Virus record (IMG/VR): IMGVR_UViG_3300025886_000014
Location: 1-64,000 of that record
Strand: one strand, 5' to 3'
From: a virus
DNA: 64,000 nucleotides
Of this stretch, positions 9,601 through 38,332 are shown piece after piece. Below the pieces are notes generated by a model. It ran no database searches and was not told where the DNA came from. It saw nothing but the letters and a program-made list of their open reading frames with translations. Each line of letters opens with the position of its first letter. Positions within the stretch are counted from its first letter, which is position 1. A program made the translations under genes and the position numbers.

Positions 9601-10291
9601 ATTCAACAGAATCTCCGTTTTTCCATAATTCATAATTAAATCCATCAAATGTAAGTGCATTATGCGTCCAAGTGTTTGCGTCAAGACTACTGGCACTAGA
9701 GGTATACTGAACCCCATTTACAATAATTCCTTCTTCATTTAATACTAAAATATCTTTAAATTTATCCATTACAGCAAAAACGGTGTCATTTGTTGCAGAA
9801 TTTTCTTTACGATACCAAAATTCAATAGTAAATGGCGAAAATAATACCATACTATCAAGGCTACTATCAACAGTAATAAAGTCAAGACTACTATCAAAAA
9901 ATAATGAAGAATTTCCATTATTATATGGCCCATGTTTAACTGCTTGAGTACGACCATATTGAGTGATTGTATGGGAATCTGAAGAAAAATCTAAAATAGA
10001 AGAAACTCTTGGATTTGCTATATCAAATATTGAAAAATCATCAGCAATACTTTTATTCATCCAGAATTCTATACTAAAAGAATCTCTTACCCCAGGAGAT
10101 AAAAAATCAAAAAATGTGCTATCTAACCTTAAATGTGTACCATCATCAAAATTATAAGAAAATGATGAGGTAGTGCTTAAATCAAAAAATCTGTAAATAG
10201 CATTATTTTTTTTTACTACTGCCTCATCACCTTCAACAACATCAACCGAAGATATGTCGGCCTCTGTATTACATATTTGAATATTACTCAT
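3683..10291 (-). CDS. Large LamG-type adhesin / tail fibre subunit
   Basis: A 2202-residue protein. Its N-terminal about 350 residues contain repeated lectin-like strands such as DSFSIEFWMNKS and SPFTIEFWYRKENSATNDTV followed by ANTWTHNALTFDG, which is the pattern of concanavalin A-like/LamG (Laminin_G_3) domains that bind glycans. A second jelly-roll-like segment with YIDGIKVDSSS appears near residues 1780-1850. The long central part is rich in Tyr, Asn, Gly, Pro and aromatic residues and matches no family I recognise. The ATG follows directly after the stop of the 5716-residue fibre, with no space for a promoter, so it is expressed with that fibre. I infer a receptor-binding protein carried on or with the giant fibre. 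Confidence 0.65.
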   Translation of the reverse strand: MSNIQICNTEADISSVDVVEGDEAVVKKNNAIYRFFDLSTTSSFSYNFDDGTHLRLDSTFFDFLSPGVRDSFSIEFWMNKSIADDFSIFDIANPRVSSILDFSSDSHTITQYGRTQAVKHGPYNNGNSSLFFDSSLDFITVDSSLDSMVLFSPFTIEFWYRKENSATNDTVFAVMDKFKDILVLNEEGIIVNGVQYTSSASSLDANTWTHNALTFDGFNYELWKNGDSVELTRTPDDGASVKYIIDSGFMNIFTMDRKVPSSWTVQTTMSPTDKTLFYMGGAVNRVQLQTINSGADLKLSAGGADGPSLIVPAPTDNDIHTISWDVNTDPGRVRLWIDSNYQGSNSINKSLPARQWALTSFEDLSNATFTNSPSMLDSSTRSRSDGAENYNTDIFPYSTFNNEQDGSWNYYYDYPTVQKLSKLAYTNEDCTVDGEQDISKVTRRPLNLQHTRYKYINSRINNGYVGFPLWCFGSSGGISGDNANARLIAKYTMANAVDGYRPQHFYDNLNENIPSASKQNIPGYTHADGYTPAYDIDHRKQYYGITLQWMWMPQWEKSTAARFVGNNRYLSGGIRNLDDTGAVIPSGEVYSINSRGLIYSFIARYYMHIQKYPEAFDLGYHRPDRWYTDDYLPLAGYDENGHKSHNSVDFLSAPPLRNENKPAPLGSIFLEDDITKHRNNTINAAAFDTAPANWRRDGVATGNASLFSSLGTGLKFGAEAAYKAKQTDGMSENIGLKQEKWAVDFIKEWHNNNKGQYLQSGSTPGQPVGGLTTYWGDRWNSSLGSDYDPWTHQEIVDCLTPASVTPMAREGTAGVALNKNQNAIPGYGTRGDLLGGARVFSAGNYTYIDNVSIHKGGTKTYYIEIDPADNRSGHPADYTGMWFAQKSVFYGPELAKTNAHKYNRTNCPVYLTLFETSKIGVHPYMYTNGQFVSETYGQMSNFRIDGLSKTSQYDNSDDYYGGNAQFNRPIDRYSGDPTKTGSTGAWSSLRRHRATHTYVDYRYVSPYLDTQVYNTNQRYKQPSGKGDMGDGFPTAPHPQSFGSIAPDKFVPRGGLGDDGFGASAYQTDVYPMVKDFGSERVSYIISEPDSRIYIFASAAYIGYVDFPENDAPYSIMLKKGEKISSTDGTKNINAVSDTRGQNRGVYYPGDYGEGAFNQFKVINNIQPYINTLKKDALIIDGVFGGLGERLGTHKNVGGVITNIDWINDDLEMPDSQIPENQYNRQASKFGTIRPSQWPGPPASYYPQNHNSNGVNVGGMIIEPDHRGDAYSPYLNQNIAVSFKAYYESWYPGITSDNHDRYFNFRILHQIMLSIDGSQGLAPAEYLSDQGTTWPFSDYPYFIRTISSKDTRGYQSDVNKGAMHTSLALMHKFRRGRLFDNFEHRKWCVHSHSKVRIGANSWKLDPVDLIETIPSADRNASSSSGDGAFGMDSLGDSWQGTLKSSLLYNPQMYSDFKDCSVTIAEAVRNNRGEQTGLQYATDYVAKTGGSIVHYSGGQNTDIKTALAGLSEGDALVLPTGKYEVSASQTGTQTHYNTKTSIFFDVGFLICGTTDNPNDVELKIKVHRIFDEATTSNTQLAFMNIKKAEYHSYNPDIIFKSAHGIAFKCIFDFNNKDIGWRTYQSSRDAGSSDNIIKFEGCIFTNYKSWLVPNRNNYSSYKNSKVNVNEIIIKDCIFQKDFGPTYDLLNPTNSPTFEGKLLINQSTVDTTFTTGNPMSEWYIDDYVAASKFRYIRDFIIHDSNKYALQYTIDSAPTIKNDSSTHLILNPQIVDTVLSYGTDGTITHGISKSKLHNVPYTLGDWFSTSLNYSGDSNVIRTYIDGIKVDSSSINLDINSLISTDNIMFNKKDSWNPTLGIYEDVYGDFLLKEFRLTRNQKRNGNDYTAQFLTEFGFGDKLTKDPDDVFLTAHDGSSILANENSPYTADVKSWRKVGILPNALESAYTILVDDNPSEQYGTGVFGEGANIDFKMPFKTTGAPPADWQYTNADVAPRPQNMTLGLVEDSNYRPIRKTMPIYESDGFGGFNSPLVQESSGSYIGTITGDDHTYIYQPDSNLAFARPSFLIHLKDSDDRGDSIDWTYSVDNYQTPILQIGHDADNKTFYIKAYDISESNMHRTSHLHFIGKSVDSENKRPIVNSLSRPTDSSATPMEISFQYNGTSGLDISWLGDIQFMRYITLDSIPPDFDSTSMIFDPIVSSLTGGII

Positions 10292-13200
10292 TTATTTCTC
10301 CGTAAATAACCAACCATTTGCAACATTATAGTACACTAACCCAAACGCTGCCCGATCAACATCAATAGTCAAGTCAGAATCACTTGCTTCTATTTTATGA
10401 CCGTTCCTATTTATAGTAATATTATTAGTGTTTGCATTTCCAGTACCATCAATAAATCTAATTTCATCACCCAAATTAGCCGAAACTGGAAGATTAATAG
10501 TCTTGGCAGTAGACGTATCAATAATCAATCTTTGATTAGCAGTTGCGGTTATTGGTGTACTAGTGATTTCTGTCCAATTTGCCGCGCCAGCAGTTGTTCT
10601 TGCCGCAACATAAGCACTATCAACAAGGGTAGTAACAGAAGAGATGCCTATTCCAGTTGGATTAGATTTTACCCATTGAGAAGTATTATCACTATCAGTA
10701 TAGTAAACATAAGTTTCAAGGACTTCTGGATCAAACCACATGGAACCTACGCTTGGTGATGCAGGAGGATTATCTGAAATTGTTAATCCACCACCACTAC
10801 TACTTGACCTTGCTGCAACGTATGCACTATCAATCATATTAATAATAGATGCACTATCTGTTCCAGCGGTAACCCTCGCAGCAACATAAGCACTATCCAC
10901 TACAGAACTAACTGCCGAATTTATAGTACTTGTACTAGCACCTATTTGACTTAATGCGTTGATAACAATCTCATCACCAGAATTTGCGGCATTAATAAGT
11001 GTAATTGTACTTGAACTTGTTGTATTATAGTCCACACCCTTTAATAAATTTATACCATTTAAGAATACAGTAACTGAATTAACACTATAGTTAAGTGTAT
11101 TTGAATTTTGATCTGAGCCAGTAAATACTGTTTGATTTGATGTTGCTGTATAGTAATAAGATGTGATGGTTGATGTAAACGAACCACTTCCACCGCCAGA
11201 AGTTTGTCTTGCTTGAACATAAGCACTATCTACTAACGCTATAATAGATGCACTATCTACAGAACCACCACCGCCAGAAGTTTGTCTTGCTTGAACATAA
11301 GCACTATCTACAGTAGATGAAATATCATCAAAGTTTGCTAATTTTACCCAATTTCCAGCGTGAGCGAAGTAACCTTTTCCAGTACCATGAACGTGAGCAA
11401 ACATTCCATGATATGTTGATGCGCTTGGAAGATCACCTTCTACCGAATATACATTTGAGTAAAGCATTTTTCCAGTGGTAGTAATATTGTTACTACCCAT
11501 GTCAATCGCACCTGTCATAGTGCCACCAGAGAGAGGTAATTTAGCGGCAATACTATTTGTTAAAGTAGTGGAGAAATTAGCGTCATCTCCAATCGCCGCC
11601 GCCAATTCATTGAGCGTATCCAGTGCAGCAGGTGCTGAAGCGACCAATGCCGCCGCTGCACTATCAGCAATTGATCTTATATCTGAAGTTCTTGCTAATT
11701 CATGCCAATCAGCACCAACAGCAATTTTTGGAAGTTGTGCTTGGTTATCATATACAACCATACCTTTATATGTTGTAGCACTTGGTAATTGATTAGTGAA
11801 AGCAAAAGTATTATTATAGTAAATCGTATTACCACCAAAGTCAACATCTCTAGTCCCAATACCAGTAATTGGATTAATATGCGCTGAGTCTATTATACCT
11901 CTAATGTAAGGAGTAGAAATAAATCCTTGGATATATCCACTATCTGCTATACCTTTAACATATTCACTATCAATGAAAGTTTTCACATAATTTGAGTCTG
12001 CATGAGTTTTTATGTGACTTGAATCTGCAATTCCTAGAATATGTGGGATTGTTACTTTATTAAACGGTACTCTGAGATCAACATAAGCACTATCAACAAA
12101 TCCCAATATCGCATCCGAATCTATTCCTAGAACTTTAGCAGAATTACCAGCATTATCTGTAACTTTTAGTCCAGCAGGAGCAGCCGTTATTCTAGTGTTA
12201 CCTATGTTTATTGTACTACCACTTAGATATAAATCTTTGAATTTCTTGGTAGGTGAACCAAGATCAAAGGCACTATCTAATTCTGGAAGAATATGACCAG
12301 TTGCCGCTAATTTAGCATCAATAACAGTTGTCACATATGCAGAATCCGCTGCCGATAAAATGAACGCACTGTCATACTTTGTATCTGTAATATTAAATAC
12401 ATATGCACTGTCCATGAAACCTTTTACATAACTTGAATCCGCAATTCCTTTGACATAAGATGAATCTATATGAGTTTTTAGATAATTAGAATCTGCTGCT
12501 GATTGAATGTGGTTTGAATCTGCGATTCCTTTAATAAATGCAGAATCAATATTATTAGAAGTTTTCACATATGCAGGGGTTATGATGCCTTTAATATATG
12601 AAGAATCTATATTAACTTTAAGATAATTAGAGTCTGCAATTCCTAAGACATAGGCACTATTAATGAAAGTTTTTACATAATTTGAGTCTGCAATTCCTAA
12701 GACATAACCAGACGATGCCACAGTTTTTACATAATTTGAGTCTGCAATTCCTAAGACATAACCAGACGATGCCACAGTTTTTACATAATCTGAATCCGCT
12801 GCTGAGAGGAAGAGCGCACTATCATATTTTCCATCAGTAATACTGAATACATACGCACTATCAATGAAACTTTTTATATAATTTGAATCTGCCTTTGATC
12901 TTACATATTCTTGAGTAACTGCTGAGAATATCCAATTAGAGTCAGCGCGAAGTTGGACATAAGAACTATCAATGAAGTGTGATATCGCATCTGAATCTAT
13001 TCCACCAAACTTTAAAAGATTTCCAGCACTATCAGAAAGTTCCAAACCACTTGCATTAGAAGATATTATGACTTCTCCAAGTGAAATTGAGTTTCCACTT
13101 AGATATATATCTCTAAATCTTTCAGTAGGTGATCCTAAATCATATATCGTATCTAAGGCTGGAATTATATCTCCTACTGCTTTGTGAGTTGACATAATAT

Positions 13201-16200
13201 AAGCACTATCAATATTCAATTCAGTTTTTACATAATCTTCAGTTACTGTGGTTTTTACCCAATCTGAGTCATAAATTTCTGATATATTAGTACCATCAAT
13301 AAAGAAACCACTATCAGCATTTATTTTTCCATTAACATCAAAGGTAAAACTTGGAGAAAGTTTACCCACACCAATAAATTTACTTGGAGACTTGTATGTG
13401 GTGTATGATGCACCTTCATCCCAAGGAGTTTCCAGAACTAATTTTTCACCGTTTACTTCAATATGACCATTGAAAATTTCTAACGCTGGTTGTTCTGCTG
13501 CGCCTGTAATGGGTTCTTGTGTACCATGTATAACAACTTTACCACCAACAGCAAGACCAGTACCAGTAGTTAAATTTCCTATAGTTGGACCTAATGTTTC
13601 AATTGCTTCTTGTCCAGCAGTTACACCAGTTACTCCACTAGTTCTAAGTTGAGTTTGAACACCAACTCTTGATGGATTAGAATCCCAATGACTATAAGAT
13701 ATTTTACCAATACCAACTTTAGTACCATGTGTGGCTTCAAAGCCTGTTGGGTTTGTAAATTGTGCTTCACCGCGACCAAGAGCCTTTTCAAGAGTGGTTA
13801 AATCGCCATACTTAGCAGAAAGAATGTGCTTAACTCTAAATGCTATAATATCTCCACCAACAACACTATCAAGTTTATCATTAATATAGGCAGAATCAGG
13901 CCAAGCAGTGCGAACAAGATCGTTAATATAATCTTCATCAATCATTTCAATAATTGCACTAGAGTCCGCACCAGATGGATTAGCACCAAAAGAGTATCTT
14001 TCTGCTACATATGCACTATCAAAAAATTCAGTTGCTGAATCTGGTGTAATTTGATAATTAATAACATTAGTATAATGATTTAGATAGATGTTACTATCAA
14101 GTCCACCAGTTGGAAGAATAACATCACCTTGATATGTTAATCCTTCAAGGTTAACATTACCATTAACATCTAGTGTATAATTTACATTAGTTTTATATAC
14201 ACCATTAGAATCTGGACCATATCTTAAATAACCAGGAGTTAAAGTTGCAGTACTATTATCTAAATTAATACCAACAAACTCAAAATCATTAGCACCCTTA
14301 TATACAAGATGTGACGCCCCACCACTTGGACTTTTTTGGAAGAATGTATCGTTAGTGCATGTCGTTCTAAGATATTCTTTATTAATTATACCTTCAACAT
14401 ACTCTTGATCAGCCGCTGTCAAAATCCAAGCACTATCTGCTGCAACGTATCTGATATAATTGTAAAGTCTCATACCTTGCATATAGAAATCATGCTCATT
14501 ACCAGCAGCATCAGTTCCATTAACATTAATTGGACCATTTACTTCAAGAGCATATTTAGTTCCAGCCCTTCCATTTTCATTAACTTTTTCACAAGTAATA
14601 TCAGTTCCACCATCACCATAGGAACCATATGCTGCCGCACTTTTATATTGTATAGCAGTTGCTGGAACAATATTAATTTCATCTTGCTCAATTACAACTT
14701 GACCGCCTTGAATGGATAGAGTATTATCAGTTGATACTGTTGTTGCTGTTGTTCCGAGTCCAATACCAACACTGTTCGCTGCGCTATTTACTGCACCGCC
14801 GACTGTAATATTGGTTCCTAATCCCAAAGCATTTTGACCGTATACAGTAATATTTCTACCTAAACCAATACCACCTTGATTTCCTGCGGCTCCAGTAGCA
14901 GTAACTGTATTACCGATTGCAATAGCACCATGAGTGGCAATATTATTTCTACCAAGCGCAATCGCTTCAGTGTCTGAAGTATTACCTCTACCAAATGCTA
15001 TAGAGTGTGTTGTATTGCTATTACCACTACCAAGATTTACCTCGTTATCATAACCAAATGCTAAACCTTCTTTTTGAACATCATTTGAAGAACCAAATGC
15101 TAGACCATTTAACTCAACAACATTTTGTTTACCAAATGCTAAACCACCATTTGCAGTAATTGTGTTTCCTATACCATAGACCATAGCGGTTGAAGGTGTA
15201 TTTGTACTGCTAGTTGAGGCTCCAGACTGACCACTACCATATACAGAAACATAACTATTACCTGAGTTATTAGAACCGTAAATATTTGCTTTAGAGTTAT
15301 TTGTGTTATCAGTTCCAACAGTAATGCCTGGAATAGAACTTGTTCCAGCACCCATTGTATTATTTTTACCAATAACTACTGATTTGCTTCCAGCATCGTT
15401 TGAGTAACCAATAGATACTGCATCTTGCCTTGCGACATTGGGTAATGCTGAAGTACCACCACCTATTGCAACTGATCTTGCACCTAAAGTTTTTACATAT
15501 ATACCCATAGCAGCAGTTGCACCCGCCGCTTGTACTGAACGGCCCATGGCAACAGCATAATTACCTGTATTTTGAACGTAACTACCAATTGCAACACCAC
15601 CAGTTTTAGATGTGCTATTAAGACCGAAAATAGTACTATAGTTGGCTCCACTATTACCTTGACCAACCATAACTGCGCCGGTCTTACCAACCACATTATT
15701 ACCAATGGCAAATCCACCGCTACCAGAATAAGCATTATATCCTAATGCTATTGATCCTTGTGAACCGTGACTTCTAACATTTTTACCAATTGCTACACCA
15801 TTGCTACCAGCAAAAACAGAACTACCAACCGCGACTGATTTTGATGATGCAGTACCTTGTGATCCAACAAAAACACCACCAGTACCTGTCGCTTTACCGT
15901 CTGCACCAATAGCAACCGCACCAGTACCACTTGTCACATGAACATTTCTGCCCATCGCAACAGCATTTTTCCCATGCACAGTAACTTCTTTACCAACACC
16001 AACCGCACCTTTTGCGCTACTTCTCATTATAATATTTTGGCCTACAGCGAGAGCATCTTCTTTTTGTAATAAATTATCATTACCAATGGCAATTGTATAT
16101 TGCTTATCTAACTGATTATTATTACCAATTGAAGTTGTATCTTCTTTTTTAACTACACTGTTAGCACCAATCATTAACGATCTATCAGATGTTCTATAAG

Positions 16201-19200
16201 CAAGTAAGTCTCTACCTATTGCTGTAACATTATTGGCAGTACTTGGATTCATCAATGGGAATGAGGATTGGTCATTCGCAATACCAACATTATATCCAAT
16301 CGTAATTCTATTTCCTAATGAAGTATTGAAAGCACCCGCTGAGTTAATTTTTGACCCAAGTGATACAATTTGTTCTTTGTTATAGATGAATGGATTATTT
16401 GGAACTGGAGTGCCGCTGGTATTATTAGTAGGTCTTGCAATAATACCAATACCCATAGCAACACTATTGCGCTGTGGCATATCAATACCTTGACCAAGTG
16501 CAACACTGTTATTGTTATTTTTAGATGCCGTTGTCGCAGATTTTTTGACTTCACCAACTTTTACATCAAAGCCCAATGCAGTTGAGAAATGTGATGCTTT
16601 GGTGTTATTACCTATTGCAATAGACTGATAGCCGACTTCACTATCTTCCCAATAATTGGATGCCCCAAAACCATCAAGCGCACCTATTCTGAGCGCACCT
16701 CTCTGTGGTATCCACATAAATCTTGCTTCTGCGCCCTTATTAGGAACATTTCCACGAATAACAGTACTAACGTCATTATCTGCAATACCAGCACCACCTG
16801 CACCAGTAGAAATACCACTTTGGAAATTATTGGATAAGAACATTACATTTCCAGAGTCAACAACAAATCTTGTTGCTAAATCACCAGTTAATAAGGTTTT
16901 CGGTCCTATAATAACCGCACCTTCATCATCATAGAAGATTTTCTTTTGAACCCCAAGAGACACATTTTCAATCTTCCAAGGAGTTTGAAGTCTTATACCA
17001 ATATAATCTGAATCAACGATTCTACCAATATGCGAATCAAGATCAAGTCTATGAGTTTTTCGGAAAATGTTTAAAGATTTATCCGTATTTACTACATCAA
17101 AACTATCTACTAATATATGATGCAAATTACCAGTAGGTGTGGTAAAGGATTTACCACCAAGAACAGGAGAACCATCAGATTCATATTTGAAAACTACGTT
17201 ACCAGCATCAACCTTTGTATTATCAAATGTCTGGAAATGATTTGATGACCGATCAAAGAAATGTTGAAAGCGTTGATATTTGTGATTTTCATGATTAGGA
17301 TTAAGAACATTTTCTGGGAATGTTGTTCTATTTCCAGAACCATCAGATTCATATTTATAGAAGTCTACTGGTTCCCCAACAAACATACGTGACATTGAAT
17401 CAAGAGTAAAGTCACCATTGGTAAGTTCAAAACTTCCCTTAACATGAATTTTGCCAGTGTTAGTTCCAACATCAAGTGGATCAATAGTGATTTCACTTGG
17501 TCCTCTAATCAAGGTTTGATAAGAACTATCAATTTTAGCAGTTTTGATGTATGCACTATCAACATCTAATTGACTAATTCTAGCACTATCAACAAGTAAT
17601 TGGCTAACATAAGCATCATCAATTTGGGCATATTTGATATATGCACTATCAACCACATCCCATTTTAGTTGTTTTATATAGGCACTATCAACATCTAATT
17701 GGCCTATGTTAGCACTATCAACAAGTAATTGACTGATATATGTATCTAAAATTTGATCTGCTTTAAGAATTTTAATGTAAGCACTGTCAGCATCTAATTG
17801 ACTAATTCTAGCACTGTCTGAAGTAAATTGTTTAATTGTAGCACTGTCAGTTACTATCAAATGACCAATTGTGGAACTGTCAACAATTAATTGACTGATA
17901 TAGGAACTATCAATTCTGGCGTACTTAATATAAGCACTATCAGAAATTAACTGATCAATTGAGGCTGAATCAGCATCTACAAATTTAACACTTAAACTGT
18001 CTTGCATCACAACAGGTTTTGAGAATGTTACAGGTTTCAGAAAGTTTAATACTGGTAGTGGTGGATTTTGTAAAATATCAACAACATGAGAATCCAAAGT
18101 AACTTGATATTGCACATCAACATAGCGTTGATTACCTGTAATCGTACCATTATAACTACCATCAGATTCTACTTTACCTAATAAACCACCTATACCATCA
18201 CTATCTTGTTTTAATTCTTGTTTTGTCCTTAAAGGTCCAAATAGGAAATCATTTCCTGGTCTAATCGCTAGATTATTTACTGTAAATGTAACTGCATTAA
18301 GTCCAATAGGATCAGTAGTCGCCGTAACATTTTTAACTATATGTGAATCCATTCCCACTATAAGATGAGAATCAAATGTAGTTTCTGGATTAATATTTTG
18401 ATAATGACCATATGCGTCTTTAGTTGCGTCAATTAATGATCTTGGAACTACATGCGTAACTGTTTTCTTAGGACCAAAGAACCAAGTTTTTCCAGAATCA
18501 ACGTGAACATCTGCATCAAATTGAATTCTTTTTCTATTTACTGGATCACCGCTACTTTCAAAATGCATACCACCTTTAACAACAAAACTATCATGTGTTG
18601 TTAGTCTAGAACCAGTATGAGGATATCCTGGATAGGCGGCATGTGCCATAGCCTCACTACCAAGAGTAACATGACCAAATAAATTTGTTGGTCCGACAAT
18701 TTCTGTTCTGCTTGTAAGTGTAGGAGTTCTATCTTGAATTGTGATTTTATCACCAAGAATCATACTCGCTGAATCTGTTACACCATAAGCAGATGGGAAT
18801 AAACCAGGAACAACATTAAGATCACTAAACACTCTAATTTCAAATGAATCTACAATAGTAAAATCGCGGTCTTTTAATAATTGACCTTTTACTGTACCAA
18901 TAGAGTCTGTGAGTTTAACAATTGGATCAACTACACCAAACAAAGAAAGTCCAGCATTAATAGCGAGAGAATTGCCAGCATTATCAATAATGTTAGAAAC
19001 TCTTGGAATAGAAGTGCCACCAACCGCGATAATTCTATCACCAATAATAATGGATGGTTTAGAATTAGAATCATTCTGAGGAATAAGTTCTGCCCCATGA
19101 AGTTGTGTATCACTATTCAATACTGATGGTTCTTTAATATAAACATTTTTAAGTCTATTAGTATTCGTCATTAAGTTATGAGATGGTCCACCATATCCAT

Positions 19201-22200
19201 ACTGTGACGAATCAAAGAGTGTTCTGTTGCCTAATGAATCATAATCAATATATCTGTTTAGAAGTACTGTTGCTCCACCAGAAGTGGTTCTTGTAATTCG
19301 TAAGAAGTCAAAATTTACAGAATCTGTAAATGATAATACAATATGAGAATCTGCATCATTGGGTCCAAATGCATTTTGAATTTGAGTATTATTCAAAGAT
19401 ACTGTTTGAGTTTCTTGTACATAGTTGCTATCAATTGTAAATACATATGCTTCTTCAAGAACATTATCATGTCCAAGAACTTTTAGACCACCTCTTAAAT
19501 GAGTGCTATCGCCAACATATAGACCGTTTTTCCCTTTTATTTGACTAGCATCATAAACACCAAGACCATCTCCAGAATCTCTGCCATTAAATGATCCAAT
19601 TTTAACAGCACCACCAATATTAACAAAAGAATCAATATTAAAAAATCCAATGGTGGTTAATCCACCACCAATTGTTAAATCACTCTCAACATGTAAATTA
19701 CCACCAATAAATGCACTGTCAGATGTGGTTAATCTTGTTACACCACTTAAACTCCCACCAATTTGCATACTATCGGCAAATGTAACTGGACCAGAAGCAT
19801 CTAAAGATGTTACACCACTTAAACTTCCAGCAATAGTCACACTATCTTCAACTAAAAGATTTTTTTCAAACCTTGCGTTACCGCGAAGATCAAGATTATG
19901 AGTTGCCGAGTCGCCTCTTTTGTTAATAGCAACTTTTATACTGCCATCATAGTATAATCCACTTGCATGAGTTCCATCATACAGTTGTCCTGGTGCGCCA
20001 ATGTAAACCGCATTGAAACTATCGTGCTTCCAATAGTAATCAGAATCCCAAATACTAATAATATATGCAGAGTCAAGTAAACTTCTAAAGAATGCTTTTG
20101 ATGCAGCACTCGCGCTGGGGTTTGCTGTAAATGTTTCTTGAAGAAAATCAGCGTCTATTTTACTTCTAATATATGGTTGGTCAATATAACCAGTTTGTCG
20201 CAACCAAGACTTGTTAGGCCAAGCAGTTTGTGAGCCACCATCGCCGCTAAAGACAATCGGTGGATTACTAAGATAATCATCGCCTTCTTTATCTGTAGTT
20301 CTGATATTAATTCTACCTTGAACATCAAGTCCTATAGAATCTCCAACACCACTACTAAATGATGTATGTCTAGTATTATAGGAAGCAAGTGTAAGGTTAC
20401 TATCATCAGTAGCATCATCAATGGTAGTTCCAGTTTTACTTAGATTACTAGCGTAAGCAGCATTTCCACCACCATTAATATCTGGATTCCAACCTGTCCA
20501 TGTTTGGTTATTTGTAAGACCTATTGCTACAGTTTTATGTCCATCGTTTGGATTGTAAACAAGAGCATCTGGATAAATTACCCAAGAGTTGAATGAATCT
20601 ACTCTTTGTTGTACATAGTCAGTATCAAAATAACTTACAACAGAACTAAGAATTTTACTATTAGGACGTAAAACATAACTATCAAAACTTAAATTACCAA
20701 TATAAAAACTATCATCAACCGAGTTGTCTAACCAACGAACTGATCCACCAATTCTAATACTATCAGCAAATGTAATTGGACCAGAAGCAGTTAAAGATGT
20801 TACTCCAGAAACTGCCCCAGCAACAGTTAAATCGCCACCAATGGTCATACTATCCGTTGATTTAAATGTTGTCACAGTTTGTATTGCGCCAGCCATATCA
20901 AGATTCGTGACGCCACTTAAACGCCCACCAATGGTCATACTATCCGTTGATTTAAATGTTGTCGCAGTTTGAATAGCACCCGCCATATCTAAATTAGTAA
21001 CGCCACTTAAACGTCCACCAATTTGCATACTGTCAGTACCTTTATAGGTAGTAACAGTTTCCAAAGCCCCCGCCATTTCCAAATTCGTGACACCGCTTAA
21101 ACGTCCACCAATTTGCATACTGTCAGTACCTTTATAGGTAGTAACAGTTTCTAGAGAACCAGCCATATCTAAATTAGTAACGCCACTTAAACGTCCACCA
21201 ATTTGCATACTGTCAGTACCTTTATAGGTAGTAACAGTTTCTAGAGAACCAGCCATATCAAGATTCGTGACACCGCTTAAACGTCCACCAATTTGCATAC
21301 TGTCCGTTGATTTAAATGTTGTCGCAGTTTTAATTCCACCAGCCATATCTAAATTAGTAACGCCACTTAAACGTCCACCAATTTGCATACTGTCCGTTGA
21401 TTTAAATGTTGTCGCAGTTTTAATTCCACCAGATAAAGTTACTGCGCCAGCAACGGTCAAATCCCCACTAATTTGAACACTATCTCCGATAACTGCTGTT
21501 GTACCCACATCTAATGAAGTACCTATAGTAACAGAATCTCCAAATTTACCATGAGTATTTACATCTAAATATCCACCAGTTTTTAAATATCCAGTAGAAA
21601 CATCAAGATTACCACCTACAACTAAATCTTTACCAATACCCACAGAATCATTAAGTGTTACCGTACCTTGAACAATAAGATCACTATCTATAATTACACT
21701 AGATTTAAATCTTTTTGGTGCTATAGTACCAGCACCACCAGTAACAATAGGGAGTGCTTTTAACGATAAGTATTGCCCAAAGACAATTTCAGCAGTTGGT
21801 ACGCCATTCGCTGCCGTACCAGCAGAATCAAATTGTGATGAATCATATGCTGTACCCACATTTGGAGTACCAGTTCCTAGTGTAATATTTCCTACTGCTC
21901 CCTTATTGCGAGTTGTCCCTTTTGATGTATTGACCCCTACGCGAGTGGATACATCAGCAAATGTCGCACCATCATATAATTCAAAACTATCACCTATCCC
22001 ACCAACAACATTTTTAATCGCAAATATAGAATCGTTTAAGAATTGCCCTATATTAGTTAAACTTGGTAAATTAAATTCAACAGTTTTACCATCAGTCAAA
22101 ATACCATTTGTATTTCTTATGATAACAATACCTGGATTAGATTGTTCAATACTTACAACTGTTGCTGTTGGTAACGCTACAGCAGGTTGTTCAATTTCTA

Positions 22201-25200
22201 TTTGTTTATTTGAAGGATCAACTCCAGCAACATAATCTCTAATATCTTGATCATTAATAAGAATTGATGCTATATAACTATCACCACCTACTTGATTTAC
22301 ACCGTTTACTTTGCTGCCACCAATTCTAAGCGTACCTCTAATATCTAAGGCATATTCAGCAGTATGTTTACCAATAGCAACTTTGGTGTTATCAAGATAT
22401 GTATCAAGTGCTGAATCAGGGTTATTTAAAATAATTTGATTTTCTTGATTTCCAGTAAGAGTAACATCTCTACCAATGATAAAGTTTCCTTTACCATTTG
22501 TGGTATGTATTGTATTTCCTTGACCAAAAATGAAATTTTCTGAAACATTAGTTGCAGGAGTAACATTTATATAACCAGTACTTCCACCAGCAACAGTATT
22601 ATTAAAACCAATCCAATAATTTTTTGATTGTGTTCCTAATGATCCAACACCATAAACAAGAGGTCCACCAGAATATATTTGATATGTTGAATGTGCAGTA
22701 GCAGAATCTTTATTTCCTTCACCAATGAAATACGAATTAGTTGATCGCATTTCATTTGGATTACCACTTGCACCACCAATTACAACAGAATTCGCAACAG
22801 TTCTGGCACTACTTCCTATTTTATTATCATAACCACCAATATTAATAGAATAACTAGTGCTTAGATTTCCAGATGCATCTCCAATATCAGTATTATAACC
22901 ACCAATATTTACCGAATATTCTGCGTCAATATGGGTATTATATCCACCAACATTTACTGAATAATTAGCATTTGTACCAATATCGGTATTCTGACCTGCA
23001 ATATTTGCACTGTAGGAAGCATCAATATCATTATTATATCCACCCAGATTTATAGAATAGTTGGCATTTGCGGTAATTTGCAGACCGCGACCACCAACAG
23101 TTGTGTTCCAACGTCCACCCGTCAAAGTATTTGAGTAACCACCAACACTAACATTATTTTCTCCACTAATGTTAATGTTGTATCCACCTAAACTAGCATT
23201 ACCTGTCGTACTCGCACCAGAAGAAATGGTGACACTTTGACCACCAACAATTACACCGTAACTGCCAGAAAGAGAATTAGATACCCCACCAATTATTGCA
23301 TTATAATCACCACTTATTGCACTTGAATATGATGAGAAAATTCCAGATGTTGTTGATGCTGATGTGATATCATTATTATATCCACCTATTATAACACCAA
23401 TATCGCCAGCAAGATCATTATGCTGACCACCAACAATCGCACCCCACTCTGCATCAGCAGTCGTTTCATTAATATAACCACCTGCTATAATGTTATAGTT
23501 ACCAAGCATATTGTTTTGGTAACCACCAACATTTGTGTTATATGTTCCACCAACAGTTAATGCATATGATCCACCAAAGTTACTACTATAGTTTCCAGTT
23601 ACATTAGTCCTATTACTAGTAGAATTGGTATAACCACCAATATTTGTAGCGTATTGTCCATCCGCTTTTAAATATCTACCACCAATAGCAACACTATAGT
23701 TTCCATCAACTCTACTCTGATCACCCCCAAGAACAACTCCATAGTCTCCATCAACTCTATTAAAGTACCCCATACCAATAGAATGTGCGCCAATAGTATC
23801 ATTTCTATGATCAGCATTTGCATTAATTTGACCAACTCTAAATACATCACCCAAAGGATAGTATGCCATAAGAGAAACATTTGAAGAAACATTACTAAAA
23901 CTAGAAAGTGCTTTAGTAGTATCGGCAGAATCAAAGAATGGTTCACCTTGACCTATTTTACTTGTATATGATCCACTGTAATTTCCTCTAAAGATAAATC
24001 CACGATTTCCTTCTGCTTCCACAGGTACATTTGGAACCGCGACATGCATACCAATAGGCTTATTACCATTTGTATATGTGATTTGAAGTCCATTATCACT
24101 CCACGGTGAATTTTGCAGTAGTGTCCCATCTGGTAGTAATTTAAGATTTTCTCCACTATAGATAAGATCACCAGTTACATAAAGATTACCAACTCCACTT
24201 GAAACAGGCACTGCCATTCTTGTTAAATCAGAATCACTACCAATTGTAACATTACCGCCTTGAATAGACATAAAGTTATCATGAGTGTTTGAAAGTGGTA
24301 TAAATTCTCCAACAGTACCAGCCTGACCAGTACCCAAGTTAATACCAATAGAGCGGTCACCACCAACATTAACATTTTTACCAAAAGCAAAAGAACCTTG
24401 AGCCGTACTAGGGAAAGTTATACCTTCACCGAATGCAAAGTTATAGGAACCTGCAATATTATGTGAAAACCCAAGTGCTACTGAATTGGTTGCCGAAACC
24501 GTATTTCCAGCAGCACTTGTACCACCTATAGCAATTGATGCACTGCCTGTTATTTGATTTCCTATACCAATCGCGACTGCACCAGTACCGCTTGTAACTT
24601 GAGTGTCACCAATAGAAATTGATTTATCACCAACTCCTGTATTGGCCTTACCAATCGCGATTCCTTGCGATGAAGTTATTTGATTACCTTCACCAAAAGC
24701 AATACTGGTTAATGCATTGGCACTAACGATATTTTCTTTACCAATCGCAATACTAGTTGTAGCACCAGCATTAATAATTGACTTAGTTCCAGAAACAAAT
24801 GAACCATCCGCATACGTTTCAGAAGAATCTCCTTGAGCATATGAAGCAGTTCCTTTAGCAATGGTATTTTTACCAAATGCTGTGGAATAAGTACCCATTT
24901 CAGTATTTTTGATTGTGCCTGTTACGAAATATCCAGCCCTAAATCTTGCTTTAGCAGGATCAAACATCATTCTGGATTTATCACTATCTAAATCTACAAC
25001 AATTTGATATTGATCATTTATACTTGGACTTCCAGCCCCCACAGTATTTAAAGCATAATATTGTGCTGACGTATTTAATCTTCCAGATACTTGAAAAAGA
25101 TTACCTATAAGAGTGGTATCTGTTCTGAAATCAAATGCATGTGCTGGTCTATTAGTACCAATACCAATTCTGGCTCCGATTTGAAATACGTCAGTAACTC

Positions 25201-27442
25201 CAGGTTCTCTTATAGTAGGTAAATAGAAAACATCATTAATATCATAAGGAGAGAATTGCTTTTCAAAAATACCGCCGCCAATAAACCTTTCACCTTTTCT
25301 ATACATATTTCCATAGAAATCAATAGAACCATCTTTGTGAAATGATATTAAATTACTATCTAAAGCACCTTTTAAAGAAATAAGACTACTTCCTGGAGTA
25401 CCCACACTATCGTAAAGAACTGCGTGAACACCACCACCAATTGTTGCACTATCAAAACTATAATCAGATTTGAAAACATTTTTCTGTAGAGTGGATGTTA
25501 GTTGAGAGTCATTTAATTCAAGCCCATAGAAATCGTGTGCGTATGAAGTGCCTCTTCCGGTTTGTGAACCATAATTAAGTGTAAGTGACGCTGATTGTCC
25601 AGTAGGTTTATGGTAATCGCCACCAATTCTAAAACCTTCTGCAAATATATTTCCAGATTTTGTTAGTGTGAGGTGGTAGTAGGAAGAATCTGCTGTTGGG
25701 TCTGGACCTTTACCATTAACAGTTTCTTTGCCAAAATGAATACCGTCCAATGATCCCAAATGATCTTGCCATGTGCGATTTTGTGTTCTTATAAACCCAT
25801 CATCATTTATAAGCCTACCTTGTCCCGGTTCAGAACTAAGAATACCATGAGGTGTAAGTTGAAGTGAATACATGCTATCAACAAAAATTTTATCAAAATA
25901 TCCAAGATCATATACCGCTCTCAAACCTTCAAGTTCAGAAATCATTGCACTATCAGAAACAAACTGCCCAATACGCCCAGAGTCGTATAAAATTGAAGAA
26001 CCACTAATACGCGCTATGTGTGCGCTATCAACACCACTTAATTTTCCACCAATATGCAATCCACCAGCGATTTCCATAGGCAAACTAGATTTCCACAATC
26101 CAGGTGCTGGACTAACTTGCCCTTGAAAACCAGATGCATCTGCTTGATAAGTAAAACTTCCTCTACCGTGAATTGGTGAATTGTAACTTCTATTACTGAA
26201 AACGGTAATACCAGCACCATCAGCAGCAGCACTATCCATGGCTGAATCTGCTAAAATGATATTCTTATCATTTACAGAAACTGTTGTTGAGTTAATAATA
26301 GTTTGAATACCATCAACTTGCAAATCACCTTTGATAATAACACGACCACTATTACTATCAATCGCAGAAGGATCAATAACGATATCTGCTGGACCAGTGA
26401 TCAATGGTTGATACGATGTTTCAATATGAGCATATGTAATTTTCGCAGAGTCGGACATGAGTTGTCCAACATAAGCACTATCAATATCTGCCCTAGAAAT
26501 ATATGCACTATCAATATCTACTTGACCTATATCCGCACTATCAATATCAGTATGATCAATAAGAGCGTATTTAATGTATGCACTGTCAATCGTTACATCA
26601 TTGATATATGCACTGTCAATATCAGCATATTTGATGTACGCACTGTCAATCGTTACATCATTGATATATGCACTGTCAATATCAGCATATTTGATGTACG
26701 CACTGTCAATTGATACATTATCAATATGCCCACTATCAATATCGGCATATTTAATATATGCTGAGTCAATTGATACATTATCAATATGTCCACTATCAAT
26801 ATCGGCATATTTGATGTATGCACTGTCAATTGTTAGATTATCAACATGACCACTATCAACATCCATAAATTTGATGTGAGCAGAATCGATAGAAACATTA
26901 TCAATGTGTCCACTATCCATATCAAAATGACGTATATAAGCACTATCAACACGCAAGTTGTCAATATGGGAACTGTCAATGTCGGCAAATTGTATATAAG
27001 CAGAATCGCTACGAAGATCATGAATATAGGCACTGTCTGCCTCCAAAAATGTAATATGCGCGGAATCAGAAATAAGCCCTTTTATAACCGCACTGTCTGC
27101 ATTGAAAAAACGAATATATGCACTGTCAACACTTAGATTATTAAAACTACCAGAATCGCCAACAAGACTTTGGAGTTTTAGATAATCTAATCCGCGACTG
27201 TCATCTAGTAATACTAATCTACCATCTTGTGCTATTCCTGGATTATCTGGAAAAAGTGATGTAAAATATTCACCACCAATCGTAGCAATTCTGGATGCAT
27301 CACCAGTGACATTTACTTCTGGCCCTATACCAATAAAAAGTTTTTTGGATGTTTCAGCATATGAATACGCTATTTCACCTACTTTAAGATTTGATGGGGC
27401 ATCAACATTTGATGATCGTTTTATTCTTATAGTTGCTGGCAT
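10292..27442 (-). CDS. Giant modular tail fibre (5716 aa) with YadA-like beta-roll repeats
   Basis: An uninterrupted 17.15-kb frame. The N-terminus (MPATIRIKRSSNVDAPSNLK, then KVGEIAYSY) is of the kind found in long fibres of marine T4-like phages. In order it shows: 10-residue DSAYI/DSGHI repeats (about residues 100-345); YadA-head-like repeats of the type S-x-A-I-G-x-x-N (about 850-1040); GGYN-type relatives (about 1210-1550); eight or so 30-residue TDSMQIGGRLSGVTNLDMAG repeats (about 2000-2210); another DSAYI block (about 3160-3310); a second long YadA-like block (about 3600-4235); DSNYVKG repeats (about 4810-5050); and a C-terminal domain ending LVYYNVANGWLFTEK. YadA-type heads form trimeric left-handed beta-rolls, so a long trimeric shaft is likely. 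A late promoter lies 32 bases upstream. The size is extreme even for phage fibres. Confidence 0.9.
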   Translation of the reverse strand: MPATIRIKRSSNVDAPSNLKVGEIAYSYAETSKKLFIGIGPEVNVTGDASRIATIGGEYFTSLFPDNPGIAQDGRLVLLDDSRGLDYLKLQSLVGDSGSFNNLSVDSAYIRFFNADSAVIKGLISDSAHITFLEADSAYIHDLRSDSAYIQFADIDSSHIDNLRVDSAYIRHFDMDSGHIDNVSIDSAHIKFMDVDSGHVDNLTIDSAYIKYADIDSGHIDNVSIDSAYIKYADIDSGHIDNVSIDSAYIKYADIDSAYINDVTIDSAYIKYADIDSAYINDVTIDSAYIKYALIDHTDIDSADIGQVDIDSAYISRADIDSAYVGQLMSDSAKITYAHIETSYQPLITGPADIVIDPSAIDSNSGRVIIKGDLQVDGIQTIINSTTVSVNDKNIILADSAMDSAAADGAGITVFSNRSYNSPIHGRGSFTYQADASGFQGQVSPAPGLWKSSLPMEIAGGLHIGGKLSGVDSAHIARISGSSILYDSGRIGQFVSDSAMISELEGLRAVYDLGYFDKIFVDSMYSLQLTPHGILSSEPGQGRLINDDGFIRTQNRTWQDHLGSLDGIHFGKETVNGKGPDPTADSSYYHLTLTKSGNIFAEGFRIGGDYHKPTGQSASLTLNYGSQTGRGTSYAHDFYGLELNDSQLTSTLQKNVFKSDYSFDSATIGGGVHAVLYDSVGTPGSSLISLKGALDSNLISFHKDGSIDFYGNMYRKGERFIGGGIFEKQFSPYDINDVFYLPTIREPGVTDVFQIGARIGIGTNRPAHAFDFRTDTTLIGNLFQVSGRLNTSAQYYALNTVGAGSPSINDQYQIVVDLDSDKSRMMFDPAKARFRAGYFVTGTIKNTEMGTYSTAFGKNTIAKGTASYAQGDSSETYADGSFVSGTKSIINAGATTSIAIGKENIVSANALTSIAFGEGNQITSSQGIAIGKANTGVGDKSISIGDTQVTSGTGAVAIGIGNQITGSASIAIGGTSAAGNTVSATNSVALGFSHNIAGSYNFAFGEGITFPSTAQGSFAFGKNVNVGGDRSIGINLGTGQAGTVGEFIPLSNTHDNFMSIQGGNVTIGSDSDLTRMAVPVSSGVGNLYVTGDLIYSGENLKLLPDGTLLQNSPWSDNGLQITYTNGNKPIGMHVAVPNVPVEAEGNRGFIFRGNYSGSYTSKIGQGEPFFDSADTTKALSSFSNVSSNVSLMAYYPLGDVFRVGQINANADHRNDTIGAHSIGMGYFNRVDGDYGVVLGGDQSRVDGNYSVAIGGRYLKADGQYATNIGGYTNSTSNRTNVTGNYSSNFGGSYALTVGGTYNTNVGGYQNNMLGNYNIIAGGYINETTADAEWGAIVGGQHNDLAGDIGVIIGGYNNDITSASTTSGIFSSYSSAISGDYNAIIGGVSNSLSGSYGVIVGGQSVTISSGASTTGNASLGGYNINISGENNVSVGGYSNTLTGGRWNTTVGGRGLQITANANYSINLGGYNNDIDASYSANIAGQNTDIGTNANYSVNVGGYNTHIDAEYSVNIGGYNTDIGDASGNLSTSYSINIGGYDNKIGSSARTVANSVVIGGASGNPNEMRSTNSYFIGEGNKDSATAHSTYQIYSGGPLVYGVGSLGTQSKNYWIGFNNTVAGGSTGYINVTPATNVSENFIFGQGNTIHTTNGKGNFIIGRDVTLTGNQENQIILNNPDSALDTYLDNTKVAIGKHTAEYALDIRGTLRIGGSKVNGVNQVGGDSYIASILINDQDIRDYVAGVDPSNKQIEIEQPAVALPTATVVSIEQSNPGIVIIRNTNGILTDGKTVEFNLPSLTNIGQFLNDSIFAIKNVVGGIGDSFELYDGATFADVSTRVGVNTSKGTTRNKGAVGNITLGTGTPNVGTAYDSSQFDSAGTAANGVPTAEIVFGQYLSLKALPIVTGGAGTIAPKRFKSSVIIDSDLIVQGTVTLNDSVGIGKDLVVGGNLDVSTGYLKTGGYLDVNTHGKFGDSVTIGTSLDVGTTAVIGDSVQISGDLTVAGAVTLSGGIKTATTFKSTDSMQIGGRLSGVTNLDMAGGIKTATTFKSTDSMQIGGRLSGVTNLDMAGSLETVTTYKGTDSMQIGGRLSGVTNLDMAGSLETVTTYKGTDSMQIGGRLSGVTNLEMAGALETVTTYKGTDSMQIGGRLSGVTNLDMAGAIQTATTFKSTDSMTIGGRLSGVTNLDMAGAIQTVTTFKSTDSMTIGGDLTVAGAVSGVTSLTASGPITFADSIRIGGSVRWLDNSVDDSFYIGNLSFDSYVLRPNSKILSSVVSYFDTDYVQQRVDSFNSWVIYPDALVYNPNDGHKTVAIGLTNNQTWTGWNPDINGGGNAAYASNLSKTGTTIDDATDDSNLTLASYNTRHTSFSSGVGDSIGLDVQGRINIRTTDKEGDDYLSNPPIVFSGDGGSQTAWPNKSWLRQTGYIDQPYIRSKIDADFLQETFTANPSASAASKAFFRSLLDSAYIISIWDSDYYWKHDSFNAVYIGAPGQLYDGTHASGLYYDGSIKVAINKRGDSATHNLDLRGNARFEKNLLVEDSVTIAGSLSGVTSLDASGPVTFADSMQIGGSLSGVTRLTTSDSAFIGGNLHVESDLTIGGGLTTIGFFNIDSFVNIGGAVKIGSFNGRDSGDGLGVYDASQIKGKNGLYVGDSTHLRGGLKVLGHDNVLEEAYVFTIDSNYVQETQTVSLNNTQIQNAFGPNDADSHIVLSFTDSVNFDFLRITRTTSGGATVLLNRYIDYDSLGNRTLFDSSQYGYGGPSHNLMTNTNRLKNVYIKEPSVLNSDTQLHGAELIPQNDSNSKPSIIIGDRIIAVGGTSIPRVSNIIDNAGNSLAINAGLSLFGVVDPIVKLTDSIGTVKGQLLKDRDFTIVDSFEIRVFSDLNVVPGLFPSAYGVTDSASMILGDKITIQDRTPTLTSRTEIVGPTNLFGHVTLGSEAMAHAAYPGYPHTGSRLTTHDSFVVKGGMHFESSGDPVNRKRIQFDADVHVDSGKTWFFGPKKTVTHVVPRSLIDATKDAYGHYQNINPETTFDSHLIVGMDSHIVKNVTATTDPIGLNAVTFTVNNLAIRPGNDFLFGPLRTKQELKQDSDGIGGLLGKVESDGSYNGTITGNQRYVDVQYQVTLDSHVVDILQNPPLPVLNFLKPVTFSKPVVMQDSLSVKFVDADSASIDQLISDSAYIKYARIDSSYISQLIVDSSTIGHLIVTDSATIKQFTSDSARISQLDADSAYIKILKADQILDTYISQLLVDSANIGQLDVDSAYIKQLKWDVVDSAYIKYAQIDDAYVSQLLVDSARISQLDVDSAYIKTAKIDSSYQTLIRGPSEITIDPLDVGTNTGKIHVKGSFELTNGDFTLDSMSRMFVGEPVDFYKYESDGSGNRTTFPENVLNPNHENHKYQRFQHFFDRSSNHFQTFDNTKVDAGNVVFKYESDGSPVLGGKSFTTPTGNLHHILVDSFDVVNTDKSLNIFRKTHRLDLDSHIGRIVDSDYIGIRLQTPWKIENVSLGVQKKIFYDDEGAVIIGPKTLLTGDLATRFVVDSGNVMFLSNNFQSGISTGAGGAGIADNDVSTVIRGNVPNKGAEARFMWIPQRGALRIGALDGFGASNYWEDSEVGYQSIAIGNNTKASHFSTALGFDVKVGEVKKSATTASKNNNNSVALGQGIDMPQRNSVAMGIGIIARPTNNTSGTPVPNNPFIYNKEQIVSLGSKINSAGAFNTSLGNRITIGYNVGIANDQSSFPLMNPSTANNVTAIGRDLLAYRTSDRSLMIGANSVVKKEDTTSIGNNNQLDKQYTIAIGNDNLLQKEDALAVGQNIIMRSSAKGAVGVGKEVTVHGKNAVAMGRNVHVTSGTGAVAIGADGKATGTGGVFVGSQGTASSKSVAVGSSVFAGSNGVAIGKNVRSHGSQGSIALGYNAYSGSGGFAIGNNVVGKTGAVMVGQGNSGANYSTIFGLNSTSKTGGVAIGSYVQNTGNYAVAMGRSVQAAGATAAMGIYVKTLGARSVAIGGGTSALPNVARQDAVSIGYSNDAGSKSVVIGKNNTMGAGTSSIPGITVGTDNTNNSKANIYGSNNSGNSYVSVYGSGQSGASTSSTNTPSTAMVYGIGNTITANGGLAFGKQNVVELNGLAFGSSNDVQKEGLAFGYDNEVNLGSGNSNTTHSIAFGRGNTSDTEAIALGRNNIATHGAIAIGNTVTATGAAGNQGGIGLGRNITVYGQNALGLGTNITVGGAVNSAANSVGIGLGTTATTVSTDNTLSIQGGQVVIEQDEINIVPATAIQYKSAAAYGSYGDGGTDITCEKVNENGRAGTKYALEVNGPINVNGTDAAGNEHDFYMQGMRLYNYIRYVAADSAWILTAADQEYVEGIINKEYLRTTCTNDTFFQKSPSGGASHLVYKGANDFEFVGINLDNSTATLTPGYLRYGPDSNGVYKTNVNYTLDVNGNVNLEGLTYQGDVILPTGGLDSNIYLNHYTNVINYQITPDSATEFFDSAYVAERYSFGANPSGADSSAIIEMIDEDYINDLVRTAWPDSAYINDKLDSVVGGDIIAFRVKHILSAKYGDLTTLEKALGRGEAQFTNPTGFEATHGTKVGIGKISYSHWDSNPSRVGVQTQLRTSGVTGVTAGQEAIETLGPTIGNLTTGTGLAVGGKVVIHGTQEPITGAAEQPALEIFNGHIEVNGEKLVLETPWDEGASYTTYKSPSKFIGVGKLSPSFTFDVNGKINADSGFFIDGTNISEIYDSDWVKTTVTEDYVKTELNIDSAYIMSTHKAVGDIIPALDTIYDLGSPTERFRDIYLSGNSISLGEVIISSNASGLELSDSAGNLLKFGGIDSDAISHFIDSSYVQLRADSNWIFSAVTQEYVRSKADSNYIKSFIDSAYVFSITDGKYDSALFLSAADSDYVKTVASSGYVLGIADSNYVKTVASSGYVLGIADSNYVKTFINSAYVLGIADSNYLKVNIDSSYIKGIITPAYVKTSNNIDSAFIKGIADSNHIQSAADSNYLKTHIDSSYVKGIADSSYVKGFMDSAYVFNITDTKYDSAFILSAADSAYVTTVIDAKLAATGHILPELDSAFDLGSPTKKFKDLYLSGSTINIGNTRITAAPAGLKVTDNAGNSAKVLGIDSDAILGFVDSAYVDLRVPFNKVTIPHILGIADSSHIKTHADSNYVKTFIDSEYVKGIADSGYIQGFISTPYIRGIIDSAHINPITGIGTRDVDFGGNTIYYNNTFAFTNQLPSATTYKGMVVYDNQAQLPKIAVGADWHELARTSDIRSIADSAAAALVASAPAALDTLNELAAAIGDDANFSTTLTNSIAAKLPLSGGTMTGAIDMGSNNITTTGKMLYSNVYSVEGDLPSASTYHGMFAHVHGTGKGYFAHAGNWVKLANFDDISSTVDSAYVQARQTSGGGGSVDSASIIALVDSAYVQARQTSGGGSGSFTSTITSYYYTATSNQTVFTGSDQNSNTLNYSVNSVTVFLNGINLLKGVDYNTTSSSTITLINAANSGDEIVINALSQIGASTSTINSAVSSVVDSAYVAARVTAGTDSASIINMIDSAYVAARSSSSGGGLTISDNPPASPSVGSMWFDPEVLETYVYYTDSDNTSQWVKSNPTGIGISSVTTLVDSAYVAARTTAGAANWTEITSTPITATANQRLIIDTSTAKTINLPVSANLGDEIRFIDGTGNANTNNITINRNGHKIEASDSDLTIDVDRAAFGLVYYNVANGWLFTEK
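12668..12775 (-). repeat. Perfect 54-bp tandem duplication in the giant fibre
   Basis: Bases 12668-12721 and 12722-12775 are identical. They encode two copies of the 18-residue unit SGYVLGIADSNYVKTVAS (phase arbitrary). Flanking units of the same family have diverged, so this copy arose recently by in-frame duplication. Confidence 0.9.
14745..16650 (-). repeat. YadA-head-like beta-roll repeat block 2 in the giant fibre
   Basis: The translated minus strand repeats an approximately 14-residue unit with the core (A/V)-A-(I/M/L)-G-x-(N/G), for example YQSIAIGNNTKAS, NSVALGQGIDMP, TSIGNNNQLDKQ and GIGLGRNITVYGQNALGLG. This is the pattern of the YadA head family of trimeric autotransporter adhesins. 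The repeat runs almost unbroken for about 630 residues. Confidence 0.8.
17521..17960 (-). repeat. Second DSAYI 10-residue repeat block in the giant fibre
   Basis: The minus strand encodes repeated units of the form DSAYIKYARI-DSSYISQLIV, related to the 60-bp array near the N-terminus but far more diverged. It precedes a conserved segment (TLIRGPSEITIDP) that also follows the N-terminal array (PLITGPADIVIDP), so a whole module of repeats plus downstream domain is duplicated inside the gene. Confidence 0.75.
20821..21450 (-). repeat. 90-bp tandem repeat array in the giant fibre
   Basis: The segment ccacttaaacgtccaccaat recurs with small changes at a constant 90-base spacing (for example near 20913, 21003, 21093, 21183, 21273 and 21363). 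Each unit encodes 30 residues containing TDSMQIGGRLSGVTNLDMAG. About seven clear copies are present; some neighbours are almost identical in DNA, implying recent duplication or gene conversion. Confidence 0.9.
22790..24905 (-). repeat. YadA-head-like and GGYN beta-roll repeat block 1 in the giant fibre
   Basis: From 24905 down to about 24330 the protein repeats units such as TSIAIGKENIVSANALTSIA and GAVAIGIGNQITGSASIAIG. From about 23810 to 22790 it continues with a variant core, (V/I)-x-(I/V)-GGY-(N/S), for example YSVNVGGYNTHIDAEYSVNI. The second form looks like the first with a Gly-Gly-Tyr/Asn turn replacing the usual one. Confidence 0.8.
26440..27150 (-). repeat. 60-bp tandem repeat array (20-residue DSAYI/DSGHI units)
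   Basis: Units of exactly 60 bases encode two 10-residue repeats each, e.g. DSAYIKYADIDSGHIDNVSI. The copies at 26581-26640 and 26641-26700 are identical; neighbours differ at a few positions. The array stays in frame throughout, so it is a protein repeat and not a CRISPR. Constant 10-residue spacing suggests a beta-helical shaft. Confidence 0.9.
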
Positions 27443-27474: not shown

Positions 27475-27482
27475 TATTTATA
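27475..27482 (-). promoter_or_regulatory. T4-type late promoter of the giant fibre
   Basis: TATAAATA on the minus strand, in the 52-base gap between the 78-residue protein and the giant fibre, 32 bases upstream of the ATG at 27442. Confidence 0.8.
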
Positions 27483-35523: not shown

Positions 35524-35524
35524 T

Positions 35525-38331: not shown

Positions 38332-38332
38332 C

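Follow-up and report, generated by a model that had tools for sequence, protein, structure and literature searches.

A 5716-residue putative tail-fibre protein composed of adhesin-type modules in a marine T4-like phage

A protein of 5716 residues is encoded by a single gene in the fibre cluster of a marine virus. It probably represents one chain of the long tail fibre of a T4-like myovirus related to the Kyanoviridae, arranged as a trimer from a mosaic of adhesin modules and docking further proteins at its distal end. The gene is located in a window of 64,000 nucleotides (positions 1 to 64,000 of the IMG/VR record IMGVR_UViG_3300025886_000014). This record is linear with 66,122 bases, so that the window represents only part of the genome of a larger phage. 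On this reading, a single chain of about 600 kDa, consisting of modules of the bacterial-adhesin type, would suffice for marine T4-like phages to build an entire long tail fibre. Such giant fibres form a conserved family and are not assembly errors. All of the module types are known by themselves; their combination in a single chain of such size is undescribed as far as the searched literature shows, in which no paper on a giant fibre of this kind was found. The first-pass annotation of the sequence had rated the gene among the longest of phages. It does rank there, but holds no record, because the profile of phrog_701 in PHROG comprises 6136 positions.

Table 1 Features of the giant gene and of its neighbourhood in the window (aa, residues of the giant unless given as a protein length)
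Feature	Position	Strand	Basis
Giant tail-fibre gene, 5716 aa	10292..27442	-	ORF and homologues
Marine-fibre N-terminus, aa 1-99 (MPATIRIKRSS..GEIAYSY..LFIGIG)	27146..27442	-	Conserved; many viral contigs and Pelagibacter phage Mosig
Pentapeptide-repeat solenoid 1, aa 100-345, 20 residues per coil	26408..27145	-	Autocorrelation, phmmer, model
Linker/collar domains, fold unassigned, aa 346-845	24908..26407	-	Low-pLDDT model
YadA-type beta-roll A1, aa 846-1060	24263..24907	-	Profile match to solved heads; model
YadA/UspA1-type beta-roll A2, aa 1205-1745, GGYNN-type turns	22208..23830	-	Sequence match
30-residue tandem repeats, aa 1980-2235 (TDSMQIGGRLSGVTNLDMAG..)	20738..21505	-	TRF, autocorrelation
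Second, degraded pentapeptide stalk, aa 3140-3335; then collar motif GPxxIxIDP as in cassette 1	17438..18025	-	Autocorrelation, self-similarity
YadA-type beta-roll B, aa 3605-4300	14543..16630	-	Sequence match
DSxYVxxxA nine-residue repeats, aa 4810-5210, putative alpha/beta coiled-coil-like stalk	11813..13015	-	Autocorrelation; low-confidence model
Module common to cyanophage and roseophage fibre/wedge-connector proteins, aa 5276-5381	11300..11617	-	Sequence match
T7 gp17 N-terminus-like beta domain, aa 5422-5506	10925..11179	-	Weak, Z about 6
T4 gp9/gp10 and CBA120 TSP4-type domain, aa 5617-5716	10295..10594	-	Fold match, phmmer
Late promoter octamer of the T4 type, TATAAATA, 33 nt ahead of the start codon (ATG) of the giant	27475..27482	-	Octamer enrichment
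P0002, 2202 aa, LamG-like stretch, candidate distal adhesin	3683..10291	-	ATG directly after the giant's stop
P0003, 923 aa, candidate for a distal part of the fibre, overlaps end of P0002	912..3683	-	Gene order
P0004, 228 aa, short fibre-like, own late promoter	179..865	-	Sequence, octamer 893-900
P0005, 128 aa, candidate assembly factor of the L-shaped-tail-fibre-assembly family	27902..28288	-	phrog_3304, E 3e-9
Fibre-cluster protein with Peptidase_S74 (chaperone) domain	29577..30800		Domain match
Baseplate genes gp25, gp6, wedge and hub	49170-60324		PHROG profiles
Upstream enzyme island among fibre genes: five radical-SAM and two to three 2OG-Fe(II) oxygenase genes	32443..41892	-	Sequence matches

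The proposed succession of repeat modules was confirmed. Amino-acid autocorrelation of the giant peaked at lag 20 (65% identity), lag 30 (74%) and lags 18 and 9, and TRF detected a 60-bp array at 26555-26924 and a 90-bp array at 20827-21420. Both ends had been described as typical for marine fibres; at least 500 relatives of the N-terminus and at least 594 of the C-terminus were found in viral contigs and confirmed by tblastn. The assignment as a tail fibre agrees with matches of the C-terminal part to PHROG tail fibre families (E 1e-22 to 4e-10) and with the position of the locus between baseplate wedge and neck genes. A Pfam search with 2000-aa slices of the giant gave nothing above the cut-off.

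The first stalk (aa 100-345) can be read in fives (ADIDS GHIDN VSIDS AYIKY) as a ladder of pentapeptide repeats, with Asp-Ser at an exact spacing of ten residues and one step of 15. About 45 pentads are in register, the centre is I or V in 38 of 42, and A is commonest two positions before it. The stretch thus has more than the eight contiguous pentapeptides of the A(D/N)LXX-type pattern that mark a pentapeptide-repeat protein. Among solved structures, phmmer matched the designed protein 4yfo (E 2.8e-11), NP275-NP276 (2j8k; E 1.4e-10, 128 residues gap-free and in pentad register) and All3740 (E 6e-5). The pentapeptide-repeat proteins NP275-NP276 and All3740 (PF00805/PF13599) have the same five-residue ladder with I/L in the centre, A/G two before and 20 residues per coil. 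In contrast to them, the giant carries Asp-Ser at i+1/i+2 in every second pentad, remains below the Pfam gathering score (PF13599 15.7 bits, cut-off 38) and would use the repeat as a fibre stalk. In the AlphaFold2 model, this stalk forms a beta solenoid that is interrupted at intervals of 20 residues (pLDDT 74-90 over aa 131-290). With Foldseek/VIA, pectate-lyase-type right-handed beta-helices were nearest to the solenoid model among the matches listed, so the quadrilateral shape of the beta-helix rests on the sequence match. The pentapeptide family is absent among the Foldseek matches listed, which is uninformative, and no match at E <= 0.001 was obtained with the N-terminal model. Structure prediction in segments had been recommended before; for the C-terminal part and most linker parts it gave models of low confidence (mean pLDDT 40 and 50).

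Beta-roll and beta-helix parts, as expected from the first inspection, are present. Beta-roll A1 matched the solved heads of CbpF, BpaC, YadA and UspA1 (E 2.8e-12 to 7e-8), the region of A2 matched UspA1 (E 1.7e-4), and roll B matched YadA (E 6e-4 to 3e-3). In trimeric autotransporter adhesins (YadA, UspA1, BpaC), left-handed beta-roll heads alternate with stalk repeats, as in the giant. However, a YadA-type C-terminal membrane anchor was not found in the giant, which ends in a domain of the gp9/gp10 type and belongs to a phage fibre cluster. The match of the second stalk to pentapeptide-repeat proteins is weak (E 0.06); aa 3148-3340 gave shifted matches to the first stalk of relatives, which reflects the self-similarity of the cassettes.

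In aa 4810-5210, a periodicity at lag 9/18 was observed. The repeats are similar to the nonads of alpha/beta coiled coils, which are known from Tcar0761 and from the fibre of a streptococcal prophage (PMC4786415). The known examples (Tcar0761; prophage hyaluronidase 2C3F) share with the giant repeats of nine residues with a polar cap residue, followed by a short helix that in the giant is predicted, but their consensus is MATKDDIAN instead of DSxYVxxxA, and the helices of the giant (seven residues every nine residues) come from a model of low confidence only (pLDDT 24-30). The repeats suggest a stalk similar to an alpha/beta coiled coil. For the C-terminal 100 aa, fold matches were obtained with TSP4 (Z 12.5), T4 gp9 (Z 11.2) and T4 gp10 (Z 10.8, 26% identity) at an rmsd of 2.0-2.2 across 92-97 residues, and phmmer matched TSP4 with E 0.0016.

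The giant lies in a T4-like structural cluster beside the baseplate wedge genes. Of the 15 TATAAATA octamers in the window, six precede a gene start by no more than 60 nt, although only 1.8% of the positions fall into such stretches (p 1.6e-7). These gene-proximal octamers are read as a map of T4-type late promoters of the cluster; they are situated at 893-900, 27475-27482, 32073-32080, 54053-54060 and 62070-62077 (-) and at 62574-62581 (+). The order baseplate, fibres, giant, P0002, P0003, P0004, neck and terminase is kept in three related records (G001, G002 and G007), with the neck and terminase calls read from translated ORF sequence. At the place of P0004, all three carry a protein of 591-596 aa, of which P0004 matches just both ends; relative to this counterpart, about 365 aa are deleted internally in the phage of the window. 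Between the gene of P0005 and the giant, two small overlapping ORFs of 78 aa (27495-27731, -) and 56 aa (27728-27898, -) were noted. Both are matched in G001 and G003, the 78-aa ORF also in G002, with 61-92% identity.

The nearest isolates by gp6 belong to the Kyanoviridae, namely C48C1 (39% identity), Methylophilales phage Melnitz (35%) and Pelagibacter phage HTVC008M (33%); those at only 33-35% identity infect Methylophilales and Pelagibacter. A megablast search of isolate phages gave no match. Phage C48C1 resembles the window by a large fibre ORF near a gene for L-shaped-fibre assembly, of the same family as P0005. Its product of 3347 aa (L177:31012-41055, annotated as hypothetical) consists largely of YTGNYSRxFAGNY and SYTRTRxSAY repeats, which are unrelated to those of the giant and not DS-rich.

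With the T4 long tail fibre (gp34-gp35-gp36-gp37, gp9/gp10) the giant has the T4-like neighbourhood, the late promoter and repeated beta modules in common. The domain type of gp9 and gp10 is borne by the giant at its C-terminus. T4 uses four fibre proteins (gp34 1289 aa, gp37 1026 aa) and lacks pentapeptide and YadA modules, whereas the giant has both of these in one chain, which would take the place of the several proteins. The fibre would most likely be a trimer of three parallel chains, and the conserved N-terminus may attach the fibre to the virion. The body can be understood as a mosaic of adhesin-type stalk modules, presumably grown by duplication and module swapping: two cassettes of pentapeptide repeats and YadA rolls, the 30-residue beta repeats and the stalk of nine-residue repeats. 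In T4, and likewise in the CBA120 tailspikes, gp9/gp10-type domains serve to connect fibres. The C-terminus of the giant therefore most likely docks the co-translated distal proteins P0002 and P0003, which would bind the receptor. Since the giant ends in a domain of the connector type, receptor binding at the tip may fall to a different protein.

We consider it an even chance that the giant is the proximal and connecting part of the fibre only, with host recognition left to the 2202-aa and 923-aa proteins encoded directly downstream. The gp9/gp10-type domain would fit a connector, as would the position of P0002 directly behind the stop of the giant and its LamG-like stretch. Between the window and the phage of G007, P0002 and P0003 match only in short, weak stretches. 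However, between close phages they are 86% and 92% identical, respectively, and thus hardly more variable than the giant. In bacteria, YadA-type heads like those contained in the giant have an adhesive function, and gp9/gp10-type domains could equally be simple trimer caps. No solved relative of P0002 or P0003 was found by phmmer.

The description as a single frame of 5716 residues holds. From 27442 to 10292 on the minus strand, the frame starts with ATG and is open over 5716 codons, corresponding to a computed mass of about 602 kDa. The window contains no ambiguous base (N), and at its base composition an open frame of this length would arise by chance with a probability of about 10^-172. A homologue of 5747 aa is encoded without interruption in IMGVR_UViG_3300020317_000004 from an independent metagenome. 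It is collinear with the giant end to end over 5765 alignment columns, with 92-93% identity and nine small in-frame length differences. For this pair, pS was 0.167, pN 0.039 and dN/dS 0.21 over the full length, and dN/dS was below 1 in each 300-codon block. The gene is under purifying selection across its entire length. Further homologues in other records comprise 5167, 4508 and 4423 aa, and in several more the frame is still open after more than 3500 aa, where the fetched DNA ends. The distant relative G004 (177 kb) has two proteins, of 4062 and 1284 aa, as the equivalent of the giant; thus, a single chain is not obligatory.

This two-gene form would also fit a polyprotein that is cut after translation into several fibre proteins, with S74- or G2-type chaperone domains in adjacent genes; the same holds for the repetition of the cassettes (aa 100-1745, aa 3140-4300) and for the Peptidase_S74 domain encoded at 29577-30800. 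We regard this as improbable, as neither an S74 nor another protease domain was detected inside the giant itself. That two or more fibre genes were joined within the repeats by the assembler, which the tandem arrays could have confused and for which the two genes of G004 might speak, can practically be dismissed in view of the collinear independent contig, the 5167-aa homologue and the purifying selection over the full length.

A very long fibre had been predicted for extended beta-roll and beta-helix parts. The T4 long tail fibre measures 145 nm (PMC5537660). Divided by about 2,540 residues, this corresponds to 0.057 nm per residue. The rise of a solenoid is about 0.48 nm per coil. We estimated 10 nm for the approximately 430 pentapeptide residues and about 47 nm for the approximately 1,430 beta-roll residues. 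This adds up to about 280 nm if the remainder follows the T4 rate, and to about 150 nm if it is partly globular. Hence, a length of roughly 150-300 nm is estimated, and the fibre would indeed be long; the beta-roll and beta-helix parts, however, shorten it, because they are compact with about 0.02-0.03 nm per residue.

Furthermore, the dipeptide Asp-Ser (DS) is strongly enriched in the giant (160 observed, 45 expected). Outside the periodic parts, 96 DS were found versus 32 expected, and 13 DT versus 28 expected; ES and NS show no excess there. In the comparison with the homologous locus L091 outside the repeats, 89 of 93 DS pairs (96%) are kept at 66% identity and often with different flanks. 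The mean retention of 98 dipeptides in this comparison is 44% and the next best after DS reaches 73%. In nine pairwise comparisons of the family, DS ranks first in conservation in eight and third in one. An exchange of DS for DT did not occur between the window and L091 (0 of 133), compared with 55 of about 350 other serines replaced by Thr, and it is rare within the giant family. The serine codons are mixed (GATAGT 63, GATTCT 30, GACAGT 24 and others) without TCN bias, which argues for a constraint at the protein level and rules out a cause in the DNA such as GANTC or another site. DS excess is common to other marine fibres and absent from the giant of C48C1 and several other fibre families, in a set of loci that is biased by its DS-rich query.

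Turn and helix capping is the plainest reading of DS. We somewhat favour a purely structural capping role at helix N-caps, solenoid corners and strand starts, without chemistry. In the periodic parts, DS marks each corner pair of the solenoid and opens every 7-residue helix of the model, and DS-rich fibres occur in phages without detected radical-SAM genes (G004). On the other hand, Thr is usually an acceptable cap, yet it almost never replaces Ser after Asp, and DT is depleted. This near-exclusion of Thr argues for a more specific role, e.g. in serine modification or metal binding. The approximately 160 DS might then be a conserved chemical code of modified sites, or of sites for seawater cations at the trimer axis, with the neighbouring radical-SAM/SPASM, B12-radical-SAM and 2OG-oxygenase enzymes modifying the fibre before assembly. 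This far-reaching version is considered unlikely. If the constraint were due to modification, this would amount to virion chemistry of a new type, and the islands of radical-SAM and oxygenase genes near phage fibre genes would have found their purpose.

The radical-SAM genes of the island include one of the B12-dependent C-methyltransferase-like type and two of the SPASM peptide-maturase-like type. Ten of the records with a giant fibre extend upstream of the gene, and each of them had four to five PF04055 matches; G001 and G005 are truncated there. The distant but DS-rich G004 had none. Among records of other lineages, PF04055 was matched in 6 of 14 DS-rich versus 4 of 14 DS-poor ones, and the island is thus unsupported as the cause of the DS richness. 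The link of island and DS is unproven, since DS-poor marine records, one of them with 12 radical-SAM genes, carry such genes no less often than DS-rich records of other lineages. The 2OG oxygenase PF13640, tried as another correlate of DS, is likewise patchy in its distribution. Comparing gene presence between DS-rich and DS-poor loci, a set biased by the fetching query, no single exclusive gene was found. In G002, four of the five radical-SAM genes are 85-95% identical to those of the window and the B12 type 84%, whereas conservation is far lower in the adjacent fibre genes, and its giant fibre aligns at 66% or less. As a separate observation, 12 radical-SAM gene matches were counted in the marine viral record IMGVR_UViG_3300020450_000010 (L036, G030; 124,715 bp).
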